Source: a virus
Reading direction: 5' to 3' (one strand)
Length of the DNA stretch: 25,577 nt
Virus record (IMG/VR): IMGVR_UViG_3300042465_009824
Coordinates: 1 to 25,577 of that record
Shown here: one piece after another, positions 2,178 to 24,660 of the stretch
Numbering within the stretch: position 1 is the stretch's first letter
How the letters are laid out: every line of letters begins with the position of its first letter
Notes under the pieces: generated by a model
The model's database searches: none
What the model was told of the DNA's origin: nothing
The model's input: only the letters and a program-made list of their open reading frames with translations
Made by a program: the position numbers and the translations under genes

Positions 2178-2701
2178 GCTCCCGCCAGCCGGCACCGCTT
2201 TCTCCCGTGGACATGCGGGACATCTACCTAACCAAGCATGCCCAGGACGTGATGCGCATCGAGGAGATGTTCGTCGGCCTGGTCGTCGAGCTCAGGCGCA
2301 TGAGGTCGGATCTCGTCGGCCGGGTGAGGCTGCGCTCCGGCGATACCGACGCTATGGTCGAACTGCGGGATATCATGGCGTCGTGTCCGCACAGGCCTCC
2401 CGAGGTCCTGCCCGACGGGAGTCACAGCGTGTTCCAGGTGCTCCAGGAGGTTTTCAAGACTTTGCCCGAGAGTCCGGGTCTTCCGCGACGTGGTCGGCCC
2501 AAGGTCCTGCCTGGCACTCCGCAGACCGGTTACAGCCTGGAGTATTTCGCGTACCGCGCGGGCGTCAGCCTGACGACGGTCAAGCGGCTGCTCAGGCGCG
2601 GCGTCTTGCATCGCAACCTGGCCGGCCGGATTCCGCACGAATTCCTCGAGGCCTACACCGAGGGCCGGCCGCTGCCTGTCCGCTCACGCCGTGACCGCTG
2701 A
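2174..2701 (+). CDS. Early protein with C-terminal helix-turn-helix
   Basis: A 175-aa protein starting at GTG 2174, supported by a perfect AAGGAGG at 2161-2167 with 6-nt spacing. Residues 15-95 are helical and charged with no recognised family. Near residue 120, YSLEYFAYRAGVSLTTVKRLL is a convincing helix-turn-helix of the excisionase/MerR type, followed by a basic tail. It could be an excisionase-like or transcriptional regulator of early genes. It overlaps the RHH gene by 4 bp and runs into the following small gene, so it is translationally coupled. No family beyond the HTH is recognised. Confidence 0.65.
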   Translation: MSSRQPAPLSPVDMRDIYLTKHAQDVMRIEEMFVGLVVELRRMRSDLVGRVRLRSGDTDAMVELRDIMASCPHRPPEVLPDGSHSVFQVLQEVFKTLPESPGLPRRGRPKVLPGTPQTGYSLEYFAYRAGVSLTTVKRLLRRGVLHRNLAGRIPHEFLEAYTEGRPLPVRSRRDR

Positions 2702-6873: not shown

Positions 6874-8280
6874 ATGATTAACCCTGTTTCCAAAGTATTC
6901 AGCCTTATTGCCGTTGCTGTTTGTGCGTTGCTTTTGGGGTGTTCTAAAAGTGATTTAGACATTCTGAAGGATAAGGCGGCAGCTGGTAATGCTGATGCTC
7001 AGTTGGAGCTTGGTTCAGTATATGCCAACGGAACCGGCACCAGCGTGAACTATGCCGAGGCTATGAAGTGGTTCACCTTGGCGGCTGATGCTGGAAAAGC
7101 AGTAGCAGCCCGGAATATCGGCATAATGTATTCCAGGGGGCAAGGGACGCATCAGGATCTGCAAGCCGCTGTCGTTTGGTATCGAAAGGCTGCTGATGCC
7201 TCTGACGCTAAGGCGCAATATCTGCTTGGTGACGCGTATGCCAACGGCACTGGTGTCTCCCGGGATGAGCAGCAGGCGTTAAAGTGGTTTAAAGCTTCTG
7301 CGAAGGCGGGGCATCCGGCTGCCCTGACACGCATAGGTGCCATGCACTTGGAAGGACAGGGTGTCCCAATAAACATCCAGGAAGCCGTCAACTTATTCAA
7401 GGATGCCGCGGAGCAGGGGGATCCTGTCGCGAACGCCATACTTGGTTCTATGTTCAAAAAAGGCACGGTTTTGGAAAAAAACCTCGAGGCTGCCGCTCAT
7501 TATTTCAAGAGGGCGGCTGACGGAGGCAACCGGGCCGCTAAGGTCGAATTAGCTGTAATGATGCTTTCAGGCAAGGGTGTGCCCCAGGATCGTGCAACAG
7601 CGGAGCGCATGCTCACCGAGGCCGCCGACCAAGGGGTGCCTGAGGCTCAGTATCACATGGCCATGCTGAAGGCATTCGGCTCCTACGTGCCTAACTTCTA
7701 TGCCGCGGCTGATCTGCTGAAATCATCAGCTGCTCAAGGGCATGCCGATTCACAGGCGTTCTTAGCTACGCTCTATCAAGAGGGGAAGGGTGTTGTCAAA
7801 GATGACCGTGAAGCCCTCAGGCTCTTTAACGCTGCTGCCGCTGGAGGTAGCGCATCTGCTCAGAACTCGCTAGGTGTAATCCATCGCGACGGGATAGAGG
7901 TGCCCCGAAGCTTCCAGGAGGCGGAGAAATGGTTCCGTAAATCTGCAGAGGGTGGGGACCTTTCTGGCCAGACGAATTACGGTTCGTTGCTTTATTCTGC
8001 AGGAAGGTATTCGGAGTCGTTTATCTGGTCCCAGAAGGCTGCCCTCCGAGGTGATGCTACCTCCCAATATAACATGGGAGCCATGTACAACAACGGACTA
8101 GGTGTCATGGTCGATCGAGTCCTGGCTTACGCATGGGTTAATCTTGCTGCCAGCGGTGAGGAGAAGCTCCCCCGGGCTCAACGGCTTCGGGACAGTATGG
8201 AGCGCACCTTGTCTTATCAGCAGATTGTCCGGGCTCAGGCTGAGACGGCCAAGTTGAAGGAATTGATAAAGTCGGAATAG
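6874..8280 (+). CDS. Sel1-repeat lipoprotein
   Basis: A 468-aa protein with a type II signal peptide (MINPVSKVFSLIAVAVCALL) and lipobox LLLGC, Cys23 as the lipidated residue. The +2 residue is Ser, which favours outer-membrane sorting. The mature part is eleven consecutive repeats of about 36 residues of the Sel1 type (AxxxLGxxYxxGxGvxxDxxxAxxWfxkAAxxG). The first is at about residue 40 and the last (YNMGAMYNNGLGVMVDRVLAYAWVNLAAS) is near 400-435, followed by a helical tail. Repeats 5, 7, 9 and 10 are degenerate at the GxG turn. Sel1 arrays are solenoid scaffolds for protein-protein contact. A lipoprotein inside a prophage fits lysogenic conversion of the cell envelope. It could instead have been captured from the host. 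Confidence 0.88.
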   Translation: MINPVSKVFSLIAVAVCALLLGCSKSDLDILKDKAAAGNADAQLELGSVYANGTGTSVNYAEAMKWFTLAADAGKAVAARNIGIMYSRGQGTHQDLQAAVVWYRKAADASDAKAQYLLGDAYANGTGVSRDEQQALKWFKASAKAGHPAALTRIGAMHLEGQGVPINIQEAVNLFKDAAEQGDPVANAILGSMFKKGTVLEKNLEAAAHYFKRAADGGNRAAKVELAVMMLSGKGVPQDRATAERMLTEAADQGVPEAQYHMAMLKAFGSYVPNFYAAADLLKSSAAQGHADSQAFLATLYQEGKGVVKDDREALRLFNAAAAGGSASAQNSLGVIHRDGIEVPRSFQEAEKWFRKSAEGGDLSGQTNYGSLLYSAGRYSESFIWSQKAALRGDATSQYNMGAMYNNGLGVMVDRVLAYAWVNLAASGEEKLPRAQRLRDSMERTLSYQQIVRAQAETAKLKELIKSE

Positions 8281-12495: not shown

Positions 12496-13194
12496 GTGCG
12501 CATGGAGCACGGGCCCACAGTCGAACCGACGCCGGAGGCGGGGCCTCAACTAAAACACGAGCCTGCATCGCATGGCTGCGCCCAACTCAGCCTCCCCACG
12601 CTAGGTGATGAGGAAGGCCCGTGCTCCTCCCTTCCTCTCGGTTTCTTCCGGTTGAACCCGCGCGAGCGGATCTTCGTCGAGGGCGTAATGAAACATGGCC
12701 GCTATCGACAGGCCGCCATTGATGCCGGTTACAGCACTCGCAATGCCGCCTGGATCGCGAGCGACTTGGTCCGCCGCCCTGATATCCAGTCCGTCTTCAT
12801 GCAGCTCTGCCACCGGGCCGAGGAACGCGTCGCCGCCCGGGCCGGCGACTGCCTCGGCAAGTCAGAGTCCTACTCCTTCGACCTAGCCCTGGCCCGTGAG
12901 CGCCGCGCCGATGCGCAGCGCAAGGTCGACGAATCCTCCGACATGGTCGCCCGCGAGATCGCGGAGGCCGAGCTCACCGACGCCCGCAAGGAGGAGGACC
13001 GCCTGAGCCGGATCTGCTCCGACTGGACCAAGCTCGCCTTCCTCGCGATGGGCAAGGGCCTGCCTGAGTCCAAGGTAACCAACCATACCACCATTGTCAC
13101 CGGGGGCCGCGTCATCGAGCCGGCGCTCCTGGAGGCCATCACCCAGGCCCGCCTCGACGGCGTCCTTGAATCCAGGGAGGCCGTGCCCGCATGA
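12496..13194 (+). CDS. Terminase small subunit
   Basis: Recognises phage DNA and delivers it to the packaging motor. GTG 12496 is chosen because GGAGG (12482-12486) ends 9 nt upstream; ATG 12502 is the alternative, and the upstream TTG 12448 lies inside a hairpin. After an approximately 50-residue proline/glutamate-rich start, NPRERIFVEGVMKHGRYRQAAIDAGYSTRNAAWIAS and DLVRRPDI form the helix-turn-helix DNA-binding domain typical of Terminase_2-type small subunits ('F...yl..g....AAi.AGYs...A....s.lL..p.v'). A long charged coiled coil (about 125-165) follows for oligomerisation. It overlaps the large-subunit gene by 4 bp. At 232 aa it is longer than many relatives. Confidence 0.82.
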   Translation: MRMEHGPTVEPTPEAGPQLKHEPASHGCAQLSLPTLGDEEGPCSSLPLGFFRLNPRERIFVEGVMKHGRYRQAAIDAGYSTRNAAWIASDLVRRPDIQSVFMQLCHRAEERVAARAGDCLGKSESYSFDLALARERRADAQRKVDESSDMVAREIAEAELTDARKEEDRLSRICSDWTKLAFLAMGKGLPESKVTNHTTIVTGGRVIEPALLEAITQARLDGVLESREAVPA

Positions 13195-14711
13195 GCTCCG
13201 TCCTGACCGCCAAGGAGCGCGATCTCATCTCTTCGCCCTACGGGTTTGCCAAGTACCTCCTGGGCATCCCCGTCTACGACGGCCGCCGCAAGGGTGCGCC
13301 TTCTCAGGGTAGGGAGGTTCGTTGTGACGGCAAGGTGCTCTACACCGTCGACGAGAACCCTTCCTGGCAGCGCGAGGTGTTCGACGCCATGAAGGATTCT
13401 GGCGCACGCGTCTCGCTCCGGACCGCCAACGGCTCCGGCAAGACCTCCACGATCATCACCGGCCTGATACTCTGGCACCTGGCGACCTTCCCGAACTCCA
13501 CCGTCATCAGCACCGCCGGCGTCGACCGCCAGGTCCGCGCGCAGCTCTTCCCGAACCTTCGCCGGCACGCCCACAAGCTCAAGGGCTGGAACTTCAACGA
13601 GTCCTCCCTCGAGGTCACGGCCCCCAACGGCGCCCGTTGGATCGGCTTCACGACCGACAAGCCTGAGCGTGCCGAAGGCTGGCACGGCCGCGACGCCATC
13701 GCCAAGGACGGCGGTCCCGGCCCGCTCATGATCATCGTGGACGAAGCCAAGTCCGTCCCGACCGGCATCTTCGAGGCCTTCGACCGTTGCACCTACCAGC
13801 GCATTCTTTACACCTCTTCCCCGGGTGCGGCCACAGGTGAGTTCTGGAAGAGCCAGACCCAGGCGTCCTCACCCTTCAAGCGGTTCGTCATCCCGGCTAG
13901 CCAGTGCCCGCACGCCGACCATGAGAAGAACACGGTCGTCGTCGGCGCCCGCGGCGAGAAGAACCCGATGGTCCGCTCGGCAGTCTTCGCCGAGTTCACG
14001 GACGAGGACGCGAGCTTCGTCCTGTCCCTTTCCGACCTGGAGCGCTGCCTTCAGAACCCGCCCGCCTTCGACCCGGCCGGCGGCCGTCGGGCGTTCTGCG
14101 ACTTTGCGGCCGGCGGGGACGAGAACGTCCTCGCCCTGCGCGAGGGCAACCGCGTCCGCATCGTCGACGCATTCCAGGACCGCGACACGATGGCCGCGGT
14201 CGGCCGTTTCATCTCTCGCTTCCGCGAGCTCAACCTCGCCCCGCACGAGATCTACGCCGACGCGGACGGCCTAGGTGCGCCCATGCTGGACCGCCTCCAG
14301 GAACAGGGCTGGAAGATCAACCGTTGCCGGAACGGTTCCGCCCCTGACGACGCCGAGGTCTACCGCAACTGGGGTTCCGAGACCTGGCACGACGGCGCGG
14401 AAGAGATCCGCCGCTGCCGAGTGATCCTGGATATCGACGAGGACACGAAGATGCAGCTCTGCGACCGCCGTATGGACCGCAAGTCCGACGGCCGCCTGGG
14501 CCTCGAGTCCAAGGACGACATGCGCCGCCGCGGCGCCGGTTCCCCTGACCGCGCCGACGCCCTCCTGGGCTGCATGCGCGGTAGCCCCGCCCACGCCCCC
14601 GTGGACTTCATGGCCTCTGGCATGGCCCTCTCCCTGGACGAGCGCATGCGCCAGGAACTCGCCGATGAGGCCACCTCTTCCGGCGTCCATGACGGCTCCT
14701 ATGCCGGCTGA
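13191..14711 (+). CDS. Terminase large subunit (packaging ATPase/nuclease)
   Basis: Powers DNA translocation into the capsid and cuts concatemers. A 506-aa protein with Walker A ANGSGKT (79-85), preceded by the substrate-binding region NPSWQREVFDAM (adenine-binding Q motif), Walker B MIIVDEA (180-186, catalytic Glu185) and coupling motif YTSSPG (207-212). The RNase-H-like nuclease domain shows acidic residues at FCDF (D304), YADADG (D357, D359) and SPDRADA (D453, D456). All catalytic positions are present, so it should be functional. It directly follows the small subunit and precedes the lysis-like cluster and portal. Whether packaging is headful or cohesive-end cannot be told from this. Confidence 0.93.
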   Translation: MSSVLTAKERDLISSPYGFAKYLLGIPVYDGRRKGAPSQGREVRCDGKVLYTVDENPSWQREVFDAMKDSGARVSLRTANGSGKTSTIITGLILWHLATFPNSTVISTAGVDRQVRAQLFPNLRRHAHKLKGWNFNESSLEVTAPNGARWIGFTTDKPERAEGWHGRDAIAKDGGPGPLMIIVDEAKSVPTGIFEAFDRCTYQRILYTSSPGAATGEFWKSQTQASSPFKRFVIPASQCPHADHEKNTVVVGARGEKNPMVRSAVFAEFTDEDASFVLSLSDLERCLQNPPAFDPAGGRRAFCDFAAGGDENVLALREGNRVRIVDAFQDRDTMAAVGRFISRFRELNLAPHEIYADADGLGAPMLDRLQEQGWKINRCRNGSAPDDAEVYRNWGSETWHDGAEEIRRCRVILDIDEDTKMQLCDRRMDRKSDGRLGLESKDDMRRRGAGSPDRADALLGCMRGSPAHAPVDFMASGMALSLDERMRQELADEATSSGVHDGSYAG

Positions 14712-14724
14712 CCCTTTTGCCCTG

Positions 14725-15132
14725 ATGAAAAACAAACTCCCCATCCTGATGCTCGTCTGCCTGTTCGTCGCCGCCAACGCGGCCGGCGCCGACGTGCCCC
14801 CTACGACCCCCTCGGAATCTGCCGAGCTCCAGAAGGCCCTCACCGGCCTGTTGTCCGACGCCCTGAACGGGAAGGGCGGGTGGATCACGACGCTCCTGAT
14901 CCTGATCGGCGGCCTGCGCCTGCTGCTCAAGCCGGTGATGAACGTCGTGGGCGGCGTCGTCTGCGAGACGAAGATCAACGGCTACCGCACGACCTGGTGG
15001 TTCCGGTTCCTCGAGTACACCCTCGACCTGACCGCCTCGGTCAAGATCGCGCGTCCCGCCCAGGCGGCCCCGTGCGCGACCTGCTCCAAGGATGAGTGCG
15101 CCTGCGCCAAGGAGGGCGACCCCCTCAAGTGA
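14725..15132 (+). CDS. Holin-like membrane protein
   Basis: A 135-aa protein starting MKNKLPILMLVCLFVAANAAGA, a signal-peptide-like or first membrane helix, with a second hydrophobic stretch at about 52-78 (GGWITTLLILIGGLRLLLKPVMNVVGGVV). The C-terminus is cysteine-rich (PCATCSKDECACAKEGD). In-frame ATGs at 14689 and 14701 would overlap terL, but 14725 gives the clean signal sequence. It sits just before the spanin-like pair, so a holin or other lysis role is the best guess. Its size and second helix fit a class II-like holin. The terminal cysteine cluster is unusual for a holin and could bind metal or form disulfides. Overlaps the next gene by 4 bp (GTGA). Confidence 0.5.
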   Translation: MKNKLPILMLVCLFVAANAAGADVPPTTPSESAELQKALTGLLSDALNGKGGWITTLLILIGGLRLLLKPVMNVVGGVVCETKINGYRTTWWFRFLEYTLDLTASVKIARPAQAAPCATCSKDECACAKEGDPLK

Positions 15133-15500
15133 TCGGCCTGCTCTCAGACCTGGCCCGCGCGTTTTGCGACCTCTGCGAGGTGCGGCGCATCCGGGCGAGG
15201 TGGGAGCTTCTCCGAGACATCCGAGCCCAAGCCGATGCTACCGAGGACGAGATACTCCGCCTGCGTTCTGGCGACGCTGCTGACCAGCTTCGCGCTGACC
15301 GGCTGCGTCTGCGGCTCGAAGCGGACCTCGGGCTCGTTGCAGGGCTCGCCCCGGATCCTGCGCCTTCAGGCGGGGGCCCCGGTGCAGACCAAGGACGGCC
15401 TCTATCAACCGCAGGCGGACGAGACCTGGCACAGCCAGTCGGAGTATCTCCGACTGGAGCAGGAAGTCCTGATGCTCAGCCGCGCCGGCCAGGCGCGTGA
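15129..15500 (+). CDS. Coiled-coil protein, possible i-spanin-like partner
   Basis: A 123-aa frame from GTG 15129 that overlaps the upstream stop. The first half is a heptad-patterned coiled coil (VRRIRARWELLRDIRAQADATEDEILRLRSGDAADQLRADRLRLRLE). After about residue 70 it turns into Gly/Pro/Ala-rich low complexity, exactly where another frame takes over as a lipoprotein gene. This matches Rz/Rz1-type spanins, where the outer-membrane lipoprotein gene lies inside the inner-membrane spanin gene. However, the N-terminus (IGLLSDLARAFCDLC) is at best amphipathic, so the usual Rz membrane anchor is not obvious. It could be a tail-less coiled-coil lysis accessory. The frame may also be shorter than annotated in function. 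Confidence 0.45.
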   Translation: MIGLLSDLARAFCDLCEVRRIRARWELLRDIRAQADATEDEILRLRSGDAADQLRADRLRLRLEADLGLVAGLAPDPAPSGGGPGADQGRPLSTAGGRDLAQPVGVSPTGAGSPDAQPRRPGA

Positions 15501-15513
15501 CCAGAACCGATGA
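15235..15513 (+). CDS. Rz1-like lipoprotein (candidate o-spanin), overlapping frame
   Basis: A 92-aa protein in a second frame within the coiled-coil gene. MLPRTRYSACVLATLLTSFA is a basic start plus hydrophobic core, and LTGC is the lipobox with Cys24 as the modified residue. The mature 69 residues contain RILRLQAGAPVQTKDGLYQP and end in a helical DETWHSQSEYLRLEQEVLMLS segment. O-spanins are short outer-membrane lipoproteins that fuse with the i-spanin to disrupt the outer membrane in the last step of lysis, so the host would be a diderm. Its stop overlaps the portal start (ATGA). The lipobox is clear; the spanin role is inferred from nesting and position. Confidence 0.65.
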   Translation: MLPRTRYSACVLATLLTSFALTGCVCGSKRTSGSLQGSPRILRLQAGAPVQTKDGLYQPQADETWHSQSEYLRLEQEVLMLSRAGQARDQNR

Positions 15514-17420
15514 GCAACAAACTGCATGACAAGGTCCGGGCCGCCCTGGCTGCGCGCTCCCAGTGGGAGATGCGACAGTCCCGCTGGCAGGAGATGCGTC
15601 ACGACGGGGAGCGCCGGCAGGTGCGTCCCTGGAAGGGCGCGGCCGACATGCACTTCCCCTTGGCCGACATGCTCATCGAGAAGATGAAGCCGGCCTACAT
15701 CCAGCAGGTCTTCGCGGCCGATACCATCGCCTCCTTCACCGGCCTCGACGCCGACGCCGCCCGCTGGCAGATCGCCGCCGGCCAGTGGTTCGACCATATC
15801 CTCAAGCAACGGAGCAACTTCGAGGAGTTCGTCGTGCGGGCCGTCGACACGATGCTCGTCTCGGGCCGTGCTCCCGTGAAGGTCCGCTGGAACGCCCATC
15901 GTGAACGCCTGGAGTTCACGGTCATCCCTCCGCTGCGCCTCATCGTCCCGCCGTGGACCCGCAACCTCGCCGAGGCCGACTGGATCTGCCAGGTGCATAC
16001 GATTTCGGCCGACGAGTACGCACGCTCTGGACTCTACGACCAGGACCCCGACCTCATCCGCTCCATCACCGGACGCGGCAGCGAGGCCGGCATGGTCGCC
16101 GAAACCAACCGCCGCCTCCGCGAGGGCGTCACGCACTCCGACCAGGAGATGATCGTCGTCTGGGAGATCTGGCACCGCGACAGGGAAGGGCGCTGGGTCG
16201 TCTCGACCGCCAGCCCGCTCGCTCCCGACAAGCCTCTCCGGCCCGACTTCGTCTGCCCGTACCATTACGGCCCCTTCGCGGAAGGCGCCTGCCCGTTCGG
16301 CTCGTTCACCTATGAGCTGAAGGAGGACGGCTGGCATTCCCCTCGGGGTATCCCGGAGCGCGTCGCCCCGTTCGAGGCTTCCCTGAACAAGCTCTGGAAT
16401 ACCCAGATGGATTGGCTGACGCTGACCTGCCAGCCGCTCTTCTACACGCCTTCCGGCGGCCTCGAGAACAACGCCTCGGTCACCTTCCGCCCCGGTCAGA
16501 TCCTGCCCTACGAGGTCAAGTCAGTGGACTTCCCGCCGTCCCCGCAGGACATCCCCATGCAGATGCAGGCGGCCCGTGCGGTCGCCGAGCAACTCGTCAC
16601 CGTGCCGGACTTCGGCATGGGCCAGGCCTCGGGCATGGCCGGCCACAAGGGAGCCAAGACCGCCACCGAGGCCTCCATCATCTCGCAGGTGATGGGCAAC
16701 AACACCGAGCTGCGCTCCCGCATCTTCCGCCGCGAGCTCGGCGAACTCCTCCGCATGGCCTGGGCGATCTGCGCCCAGCACATGACCGGCGACCTGAAGT
16801 TCTATTTCGACAGCCAGGTCGGCCAGCTCGACGAGGCCGCGCTCAAGGCCTCCTACGCCATCGAGCCGAACGGCTCCGGCGATACCTCCAATCGCCCGCT
16901 TCAGATCCAGAAGGCCTATTCCCGCCTGCAGGCCTTCTCCGGCAGCCCCTACGTCGACCAGGCTGAACTTACCAAGTCCGCCCTTGAGGTCGACGACCCG
17001 CGGATCGTCCGCCGACTCTTCCGCGAGCCCGAGCAGAAGGCAGCCTCCCAGATGGAGGACCAAGCCCAAGAGATTTCGATCATGACCATGGGCTTCCCCG
17101 CCCAGGTCCAGCAGACCGACGACCACTCCGCCCACCTGCAGAGCCTCATCGGCTATATCCAGCGCCGGATCGGCACCGGCGAGCGCATCGCCCCGGAGCA
17201 GGGCATCCTCTTCGCGCAGCACGCCATGCAGCACTTCGAGGCCCTGAAGAAGTCCGACCCCGCTGGCGCCAAGCAGCTCGCGGCGGTGATGCAGGAGATC
17301 GCCCAGATGGGTGCCGCGGCCGTGCAGGCCGTCCAGATGCAGGCCCAGCAAGCCCAGCAGGCCCAAGCCCAGGCGTCACAGTCACAGGTGTCACAGGCAC
17401 CCCAACCCGTTTCCGCATGA
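15510..17420 (+). CDS. Phage portal protein
   Basis: Forms the dodecameric DNA channel at the capsid vertex. A 636-aa protein with the features of P22/T7-like podovirus portals: the N-terminal RPWKGAADMHFPLADMLIEKMKPAYIQQVF, a central stem/wing region (RAPVKVRWNAHRERLEFTVIPP, then WEIWHRDREGRW), the MNxLWN-type helix (LNKLWNTQMDWLTLTCQPLFY), and GAKTATEASIISQVMGNNTELRSRIFRRELGELLRMAW, the conserved barrel-side 'tAtE' helix. The C-terminus is a Q/A-rich barrel-like tail (MQAQQAQQAQAQASQSQVS). Context between terminase and scaffold/capsid is exactly right. Overlaps both neighbours by 4 bp, so translation is coupled. Confidence 0.88.
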   Translation: MSNKLHDKVRAALAARSQWEMRQSRWQEMRHDGERRQVRPWKGAADMHFPLADMLIEKMKPAYIQQVFAADTIASFTGLDADAARWQIAAGQWFDHILKQRSNFEEFVVRAVDTMLVSGRAPVKVRWNAHRERLEFTVIPPLRLIVPPWTRNLAEADWICQVHTISADEYARSGLYDQDPDLIRSITGRGSEAGMVAETNRRLREGVTHSDQEMIVVWEIWHRDREGRWVVSTASPLAPDKPLRPDFVCPYHYGPFAEGACPFGSFTYELKEDGWHSPRGIPERVAPFEASLNKLWNTQMDWLTLTCQPLFYTPSGGLENNASVTFRPGQILPYEVKSVDFPPSPQDIPMQMQAARAVAEQLVTVPDFGMGQASGMAGHKGAKTATEASIISQVMGNNTELRSRIFRRELGELLRMAWAICAQHMTGDLKFYFDSQVGQLDEAALKASYAIEPNGSGDTSNRPLQIQKAYSRLQAFSGSPYVDQAELTKSALEVDDPRIVRRLFREPEQKAASQMEDQAQEISIMTMGFPAQVQQTDDHSAHLQSLIGYIQRRIGTGERIAPEQGILFAQHAMQHFEALKKSDPAGAKQLAAVMQEIAQMGAAAVQAVQMQAQQAQQAQAQASQSQVSQAPQPVSA

Positions 17421-22526: not shown

Positions 22527-23117
22527 ATGGACGCCGGCCAGATAGTCGACCACGCCTGCCGTCTCTCCGGGATGGAGGACGCCCCGACCCGCGAAATCGC
22601 CTGGGAGTTCCTTCGTAACCGGTGGTCGCTTGTCTGGAACGCCTATCTCTGGAAGACCGGGATGCGCGCGGCCGCCTTTGGTCCGGATTCTCCCCGCGAC
22701 AGGCTCACCATGCCGGCCGAGCCCGAGATGGTCTGCGAGGTTCGTGTCGGCGAGACGCCATACTTTCCGGAATCCGACGCAGATCCCTCGGGGTTATGGT
22801 TTCGGCAGGAGGGGCTCGACATATTGCTATTCCCTCCGATCCCCACGGGGGTGGCCGCGTTTGTGCGATGGAAGCCCCCGGCCGCCGAACTCGAAGAGAC
22901 TACGCTTGTGCCACTGCCGGGAGGGGCCGAGTGCCTCCTGGCCTTCGTCACCGCCGATTTATACGAGTACATGCGGCAGCTGGCTAAGTCGCAGGCCAAG
23001 CTCCAGGAGGCTGCCGCGCTGCTCGAACGCATGAAGTCCGTCGAGACCGGCCAGCGTAGCCGTTCGGCGATGCTCATCCCTCACGAATCCGTCCGCTGGG
23101 AGGAACCACATGCCTGA
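22527..23117 (+). CDS. Head-tail adaptor / tail tubular protein A-like
   Basis: A 196-aa protein. The helical N-terminus (DAGQIVDHACRLSGMEDAPTREIAWEFLRNRWSLVWNAYLW), a beta middle (MVCEVRVGETPYFPESDADPSGLWFRQEGLDILLFPPI) and a helical C-terminus (AFVTADLYEYMRQLAKSQAKLQEAAALLERM) match the general layout of podovirus adaptor proteins (T7 gp11/TTPA, P22 gp4). The length equals that of T7 gp11. It precedes a large beta-rich hub protein, as gp11 precedes gp12. It overlaps the next gene by 8 bp. Homology is inferred from layout and context, not motif identity. Confidence 0.6.
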   Translation: MDAGQIVDHACRLSGMEDAPTREIAWEFLRNRWSLVWNAYLWKTGMRAAAFGPDSPRDRLTMPAEPEMVCEVRVGETPYFPESDADPSGLWFRQEGLDILLFPPIPTGVAAFVRWKPPAAELEETTLVPLPGGAECLLAFVTADLYEYMRQLAKSQAKLQEAAALLERMKSVETGQRSRSAMLIPHESVRWEEPHA

Positions 23118-24660
23118 TTTCTTCGTCGAGTCTTTGGACGACCCCTTGCTCGACGCGGGCGCCAGGGCTTTCACGGCCGTGAATTCGGCCGTCAATCCCG
23201 CCGTCATCGACTCAACCACGTTGCGCTCAGCCGGCAACATGGTGCTTGAGGGGGACGGCGCGTGTCGAAGGCGCCCCGGTTTCGTGCAGGTCATTCCTCC
23301 GGGTCTTCCGGTCGCCACCACGGCCCACTGGTACGATACGCCCGAATTGGAGGCGCTCATCCTTTGTCGTGATGGCGCTCTTTATTCCTACCCGAGTGAC
23401 AGGGCAGGCTATGCCGAGAGTGCGGTTGGCCTGGCGGACGCGGCCTGCGGCCGTGCGCCGATGGCCCAGCTCGTCAACACCCTGTTCGCGGCACGCGTCG
23501 CCGGTGGCGTGGCTTGGGCCCGGTTTGGCGGCGGATCTTGGACCACGGGTAAGGTGATTTCTGACGCCGACGACGGCGTGCTGCCTCGTTTTTCATTCCT
23601 TTCCGCCCACGCCTTCCGGCTCTTCGCCGCAGAACAAGGTACGGATACCTTGTGGGTCTCCGATATTCTTTCCGCCGACGTCTCCGCAGCCTGGAGCTCG
23701 CTGCGTACCGTGCGCATCGGCACGGGTGAGGGCGATCCGATCACCGCCATTCTTCCGTTCCAGGAGCAGGGTTTGCTCGTCCTTAAGGAGCACTCCGCCT
23801 GGATCCTCGATGTCTCCGGCCCTGATCCCGCGCTCTGGGCCGTTCGTAAGCTGACAGGCCTCGCCGGTTGTATCGCCGGCCGCACCGCCGTCCAGCTGGG
23901 CCAGGACGTGCTATTCCTCTCGCGGCTTGGCATGATGAGCCTGTCGGCTCTTTCGCGCAGTGACTCGGTAAGCACCGCCTCGAGCGTGTCCGCGCCGGTC
24001 CGCGCTGACATCGACCGCATCAACTGGTCCCAGGCATCCACTTCATTCGCGGCCGTATGGAGGCAGCATTATCTGTTGGCTGCCCAGCGTGACGACGAGA
24101 CCTCGCCGACGACTTTCCTAGCCTATAACACGGAGACCAAGACCTGGTCAGGCCTCTGGTCGGTGCCAGGTTCCTCCGCCTCCTGCTACTGTGTGACAAG
24201 GCTTGGCGGCAGGCAGGAATCCATGGTCATGACCTCCGACGGCGGGGTCTGGCGCCTTGACCCTCGATCTGCCACCGACGACCAGGGCGATGGCTGGGTC
24301 CGTTGCGAGGCCGAGACCAAATCCTTCGACTGGGACGCGGGCCATGTCGGCAAACGCCTCATGCGAATGGAACTAACCCTCGAGTGTCGTTCCGATGCGG
24401 AAGTATCAGTGCGGCTTCGTCCTGACCAGTCGGACCCGGTGCCCGTCGAAGACATGCTCCTGTTCAGGTCCCGTTGCCGGCTCCCGCTCACTCTGCCGCT
24501 ACGTCTCGACCGCACCGAAAGCATCAGACGCTCCTGGAATCTTCGCCCTTTGCTCGGCGGGCCTGTTCGTGAGGCCTCGGTCATCGTCTCGGCTCGTAGC
24601 CGCGGAAGCTTCGCCTTGGGAGGGGTCACGCTCAGCGCGTGCGCCGAGGGAGTCCGATGA
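23110..24660 (+). CDS. Beta-propeller-like tail hub protein (TTPB/gp10-like)
   Basis: A 516-aa beta-rich protein starting MPDFFVESLDDPLLDAGARA. The early NMVLEGDGACRRRPGFVQV ('Ng.....g..rkRpGf..v') is typical of podovirus tail tubular B/P22 gp10-type hub proteins. It continues with repeated short strands with W/F turns (YDTPELEALILCRDGALYSY, NTLFAARVAGGVAWARF, DTLWVSDILS, RDDETSPTTFLAYNTETKTWSGLW), suggesting propeller blades. Immediately downstream of the adaptor-like gene and overlapping the following gene by 4 bp (ATGA). It likely forms the nozzle or hub of the short tail. No lysozyme or protease motif visible. Confidence 0.65.
   Translation: MPDFFVESLDDPLLDAGARAFTAVNSAVNPAVIDSTTLRSAGNMVLEGDGACRRRPGFVQVIPPGLPVATTAHWYDTPELEALILCRDGALYSYPSDRAGYAESAVGLADAACGRAPMAQLVNTLFAARVAGGVAWARFGGGSWTTGKVISDADDGVLPRFSFLSAHAFRLFAAEQGTDTLWVSDILSADVSAAWSSLRTVRIGTGEGDPITAILPFQEQGLLVLKEHSAWILDVSGPDPALWAVRKLTGLAGCIAGRTAVQLGQDVLFLSRLGMMSLSALSRSDSVSTASSVSAPVRADIDRINWSQASTSFAAVWRQHYLLAAQRDDETSPTTFLAYNTETKTWSGLWSVPGSSASCYCVTRLGGRQESMVMTSDGGVWRLDPRSATDDQGDGWVRCEAETKSFDWDAGHVGKRLMRMELTLECRSDAEVSVRLRPDQSDPVPVEDMLLFRSRCRLPLTLPLRLDRTESIRRSWNLRPLLGGPVREASVIVSARSRGSFALGGVTLSACAEGVR

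Follow-up and report, generated by a model that had tools for sequence, protein, structure and literature searches.

Two overlapping reading frames in a virus whose host is probably a member of the Opitutae (Verrucomicrobiota) are, on the evidence of substitutions among their relatives, both genes: the first encodes a helical protein that lies in the position of an i-spanin and has no membrane anchor, the second a lipoprotein. We propose that the locus makes up the membrane-disrupting portion of a lysis cassette and that the middle of its three genes encodes, in the window clade, an i-spanin without a TMD, a reading that we hold to be about evenly balanced between right and wrong. The window, that is, the whole stretch of DNA analyzed, is the 25,577-base virus record IMGVR_UViG_3300042465_009824 (positions 1 to 25,577).

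Three coupled genes and a double-coding overlap

Three small coupled genes lie between those for the terminase large subunit and the portal protein (Table 1). The GTG start of the middle gene overlaps the stop of the upstream gene by 4 nt (GTGA), the lipoprotein gene begins 106 nt into the middle gene, and the portal start overlaps the lipoprotein stop (ATGA). The portal protein resembles that of MW202718 and gives a match, below the cut-off, to the SU10 portal. In two relatives (L010 and L011, portal 46% identical) the portal gene directly follows the terminase gene, so that the cassette of the window clade resembles a module set between the two genes.

The late gene block of the window holds no convincing N-terminal TMD or lipoprotein gene outside the cassette, and no endolysin was recognized among the ORFs of the window that were scanned; the endolysin gene may lie beyond the end of the fragment. 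Positions 23110–24660 match phrog_5107 'amidase' (1e-18) and also head-closure Hc3: a connector is the probable identity, and the 'lysis' label attached to phrog_5107 is doubtful there. Positions 6874–8280 encode a lipoprotein of 468 aa that contains nine Sel1 repeats (Pfam 2e-75), an odd cargo for a phage.

Table 1. Positions of the cassette genes, their parts and their neighbors (window coordinates unless a contig is named)
Feature	Position	Strand	Basis or remark
Terminase large subunit, upstream neighbor	13191..14711	+	phrog_2, E=1.5e-18
Two-helix protein, holin candidate	14725..15132	+	predicted signal peptide, one TMD, invariant W..T..R..KP residues
AAGGAGG, likely ribosome-binding site	15109..15115	+	13 nt before GTG15129 (10 nt in L008)
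Gene in i-spanin position, 123 aa, GTG start	15129..15500	+	selection on codons 1–75; positional match to relatives' TMD-bearing i-spanin genes
Residues 1–73, one long predicted helix, N-terminal part amphipathic and charge-rich	15129..15347	+	AlphaFold
Candidate o-spanin, lipoprotein, lipobox LTGC, 92 aa	15235..15513	+	+1 of first frame; ATG start
Codon of predicted lipidated Cys24 (...SFALTGC24)	15304..15306	+	invariant in six homologues
Disordered, unconstrained C-terminal tail of first frame, over mature lipoprotein	15357..15500	+	substitutions and pLDDT
Portal protein, downstream neighbor	15510..17420	+	phrog_156, E=2e-4
Fourth TMD-plus-helix gene, in relatives	L062:2716-3204; L063:2184-2549; L060 about 2190-2496		also after lipoprotein in L042, L039

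Open second frames are cheap in such G+C-rich DNA: recoding gave one frame a 29–47% chance of staying open and the other 57–75%. For this reason coding was tested by substitutions, counted across six homologues comprising four virus records (the window included) plus two contigs from one Opitutae MAG. In the first frame 16 of 24 changes in codons 1–35 are synonymous (P=2e-4), as are 17 of 23 in the overlap up to position 15356 (P=2e-5), a stretch that covers the lipoprotein signal peptide; from 15357 the first frame is unconstrained (9/46 synonymous, 0.31 expected) and the lipoprotein frame is constrained (25/46, P=6e-5), all these P values being approximate because the counting of changes took the consensus as its reference instead of a tree, and boundaries were picked after viewing the alignment. 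The third frame, serving as control, gives no selection signal. Constraint is handed from the first frame, at about codon 76, to the lipoprotein frame, and the end of the helix predicted by AlphaFold (residue 73) agrees independently with this switch. Both frames are kept in all six sequences, and the three genes have identical i/o spacing. The frequency of open second frames in this DNA (29–75%) might suggest that one of the two is open by chance, but each is under significant selection in its own stretch and the lipoprotein persists in six relatives; the substitution pattern leads us to reject this idea as scarcely credible.

The lipoprotein has the lipobox expected of an o-spanin, invariant in the six sequences, and its gene lies, as o-spanin genes may, in another frame of its partner with both frames coding (+1, 266-nt overlap). 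The mature protein has no Asp at +2. In E. coli absence of this residue means placement in the outer membrane, and by that rule the window lipoprotein should be found there.

The middle protein is predicted to have neither a membrane helix nor a signal peptide. Its best 19-residue Kyte-Doolittle mean is 0.87 (clade range 0.5–0.87) and its longest run without charged residues, N, Q or H is six, the maximum in the window clade. An upstream start that might supply a TMD is ruled out, the in-frame residues upstream of GTG15129 being charged. The missing anchor is real and common to all six clade members. AlphaFold predicts one unbroken helix (residues 2–73, mostly pLDDT >90) followed by disorder, with pLDDT <50 across most of the tail. 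Amphipathicity of residues 1–32 is modestly above that of shuffled sequences: the hydrophobic moment is higher than all but 5% in the window (matched by 100 of 2000 shuffles) and all but 2% in L008 (36 of 2000). Heptad regularity is mediocre.

Much of the preliminary description of this locus is borne out: the two overlapping frames, the clear lipoprotein in the second and the absence of a clear membrane helix from the first were all recovered, and the lipoprotein frame, whose conservation in relatives it had set as a test, came through. Two points need amendment. The first frame was called a coiled coil; the prediction upholds a single helix and leaves the coiled coil itself unestablished. 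It was also said to turn low in complexity just where the lipoprotein begins; the switch exists, but falls some 50 nt after the codon of the lipidated Cys.

The upstream protein has one hydrophobic helix and then a C-terminal amphipathic helix. Its predicted topology is N-out/C-in, which places the C-terminal part in the cytoplasm and leaves, beyond the predicted signal peptide, only ∼28 periplasmic residues. No family match was found for it, and its AlphaFold model is too poor for use (mean pLDDT 46). A Cys-rich tail (CATCSKDECAC; 15060–15120 in the window) occurs in the window, L007 and L003 and not in L008, L019 or L020. L019 and L020, two contigs of a single Opitutae MAG, carry differing copies of the cassette, which suggests two related phages or prophages.

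Homologous cassettes with and without an anchor

Profile searches revealed homologues of the upstream gene in ten further genomes from the same class; an HMM made with just the close set finds those in TMD-bearing cassettes (E down to 1.9e-7; hhalign 97%). In all ten loci the order is the same: two-helix protein, short gene, lipoprotein. In seven (G173, G159, G225, G721, G733, G657 and G749) the middle gene encodes a clear N-terminal TMD: these proteins of 73–119 residues open with a hydrophobic helix of 20 uncharged residues (Kyte-Doolittle mean 1.9–2.7), and the lipoprotein begins 100 or 112 nt into the middle gene, always in +1. In G225 the geometry (an i protein of 119 aa, whose gene contains the o start at 100 nt = 0.28 L, with 260 nt of overlap) is nearly that of the window (123 aa, 106 nt, 0.28 L, 266 nt). 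The remaining three (G016, G175 and G222) have a short middle protein with a hydrophobic start of just 12–13 residues; the lipoprotein gene is nested in +1 at 112 nt in G222 and lies downstream of the middle gene in G016 and G175. Judged from the predicted proteins, the anchor spans the range from clear through marginal to absent within one cassette type.

A link to known spanins comes from the relatives: the G173 lipoprotein matches phrog_456 'Rz-like spanin' (E=4e-4) and those of G159 and G721 do so weakly, whereas the window lipoprotein gives no match at E<=10. Its profile agrees weakly (58%) with the lipoproteins of the homologous cassettes. The window proteins match no known spanin family and have no useful family match in PHROGs, Pfam or PDB. 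Searches of GenBank phages by tblastn, with the cassette proteins of the window and its relatives, returned no match, and scans of viral contigs with the distant homologues added no further cassettes. Between the window middle protein and the TMD-bearing i-spanins no homology is detectable (hhalign 0.3%; shuffles). With the marginal group there is a 42-column profile alignment in which the two starts coincide (P=0.008; hhalign gives a probability of only 4.8%), which is at best suggestive of homology. Sequence cannot show orthology here; the case for a spanin cassette is built on the order of the genes, their coupling and the nested +1 geometry.

In several cassettes the lipoprotein is followed by a fourth gene, absent from the window, whose product has an N-terminal TMD and a long helical C-terminal part; this product may be another i-spanin-like protein.

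A proposed spanin without a membrane anchor and its alternatives

We infer that the middle protein of the window clade has kept the i-spanin role without a TMD. The upstream gene would then supply a holin-like protein, the middle gene the spanin-like inner component and the third gene, read in +1 of the middle one, an Rz1-like lipoprotein of the outer membrane. Lacking TMD and signal, the middle protein would be made in the cytoplasm and held there until the holin opens the membrane. Lesions made by the holin would let it out, the route taken by canonical endolysins; with its amphipathic N-terminal helix (residues 1–32) it would dock on the inner membrane, perhaps aided by the holin-like protein, and its distal part would bind the lipoprotein, joining the two membranes. 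That the inner subunit is soluble or peripheral, and periplasmic only after holin triggering, is a tentative and somewhat doubtful part of the proposal. In favor of a TMD-less i-spanin we count the selection on both frames, the retention of all three genes at constant spacing in the close relatives, the homology of the holin-like gene to those of TMD-bearing cassettes, the G225-like geometry, the weak agreement of the lipoprotein profiles and the phrog_456 match in G173, the lack of another convincing candidate in the late block, the amphipathic N-terminal helix and the three cassettes with an intermediate hydrophobic start. Against it stand the want of an export signal in a protein that, as an i-spanin, must act in the periplasm; the lack of detectable homology to TMD i-spanins, which makes an unrelated replacement gene possible; the modest amphipathicity; and the fact that no endolysin was recognized. 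The lysis defect of lambda Rz with a charged residue in its TMD (C14R) also counts against it (PMC5295617).

The main rival is a cytoplasmic lysis regulator. The middle gene would no longer be a spanin and would encode a helical, antiholin-like regulator of the holin, or serve lysis in some other way; the lipoprotein would breach the outer membrane with an unlinked or host partner, or the breach would occur without spanins. A protein with neither TMD nor signal and no firm sequence link to i-spanins fits such a role, as does its start-stop coupling to a holin-like gene whose product has a C-terminal part predicted to be cytoplasmic. Yet the gene matches TMD-bearing i-spanin genes in position and in the nested +1 geometry of its lipoprotein, and the late block offers no alternative i-spanin candidate; we consider the regulator rather unlikely. 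The preliminary description had itself favored a spanin-like function, which the homologous cassettes and the phrog_456 match in G173 uphold, and had proposed that the i-spanin role is split, the upstream protein being the inner-membrane half and the middle protein the soluble half. The 4-nt overlap of the two genes would suit this, and the late block has no other membrane protein. However, homologues of the upstream protein carrying the same motif stand beside complete, TMD-bearing i-spanins, so that it is not a dedicated anchor and has an independent role, most likely that of a holin; its predicted topology, moreover, leaves the conserved C-terminal part on the wrong side, and its periplasmic portion is short. 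The split is thus improbable.

The membrane helix of the upstream protein could also be fused to the helical protein, whose frame is −1 of the upstream gene and open upstream of GTG15129, by programmed −1 frameshifting close to where that gene ends. No conservation is seen in the C-rich stretch (GACCCCCTC, GATTCACTC, GACCCTCTC), a good ribosome-binding site precedes GTG15129 and several relatives with their own TMD use the same stop-start overlap; with no slippery site conserved, we reject this very improbable fusion.

Relation to known spanins

The cassette shares with lambda Rz/Rz1, and with overlapped and embedded two-component spanins generally (PMC6139136), a helical first protein, a +1 lipoprotein and a holin-like neighbor. 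Lambda Rz is anchored by an N-terminal TMD (N-in, C-out); the middle protein of the window lacks one and ends in an unconstrained tail. Because the TMD that defines an i-spanin is missing, we do not class the pair as a two-component spanin and say rather that it would work like one. Nearer at hand, the seven TMD-bearing cassettes of the same class share the homologous holin-like gene, the order and the +1 lipoprotein; they differ in the uncharged helix with which their middle proteins begin and, in several, in the fourth gene. The unimolecular spanin (T1 gp11) is an outer-membrane lipoprotein, as the window lipoprotein is predicted to be, but needs a C-terminal TMD, and the window lipoprotein has no C-terminal hydrophobic stretch.

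I-spanins without a TMD would be invisible to surveys that define and filter them by this feature. Kongari et al. (2018) required an N-terminal TMD, with other anchors not considered, and acknowledged as a gap 31 genomes with a lipoprotein and no linked i-spanin (PMC6139136); a 2025 survey discarded I-spanins without membrane helices (PMC12596118). A targeted word-matching search of open-licence papers turned up neither an i-spanin without a TMD nor a treatment of spanins in phages of Verrucomicrobiota. The cassettes, which had no description in the papers searched, would represent spanin-type genes in phages of Opitutae and their relatives, and in this set clear-, marginal- and no-anchor forms can be compared directly. 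If the proposal is true, membrane fusion would be gated by release of the spanin itself, beyond the removal of peptidoglycan.
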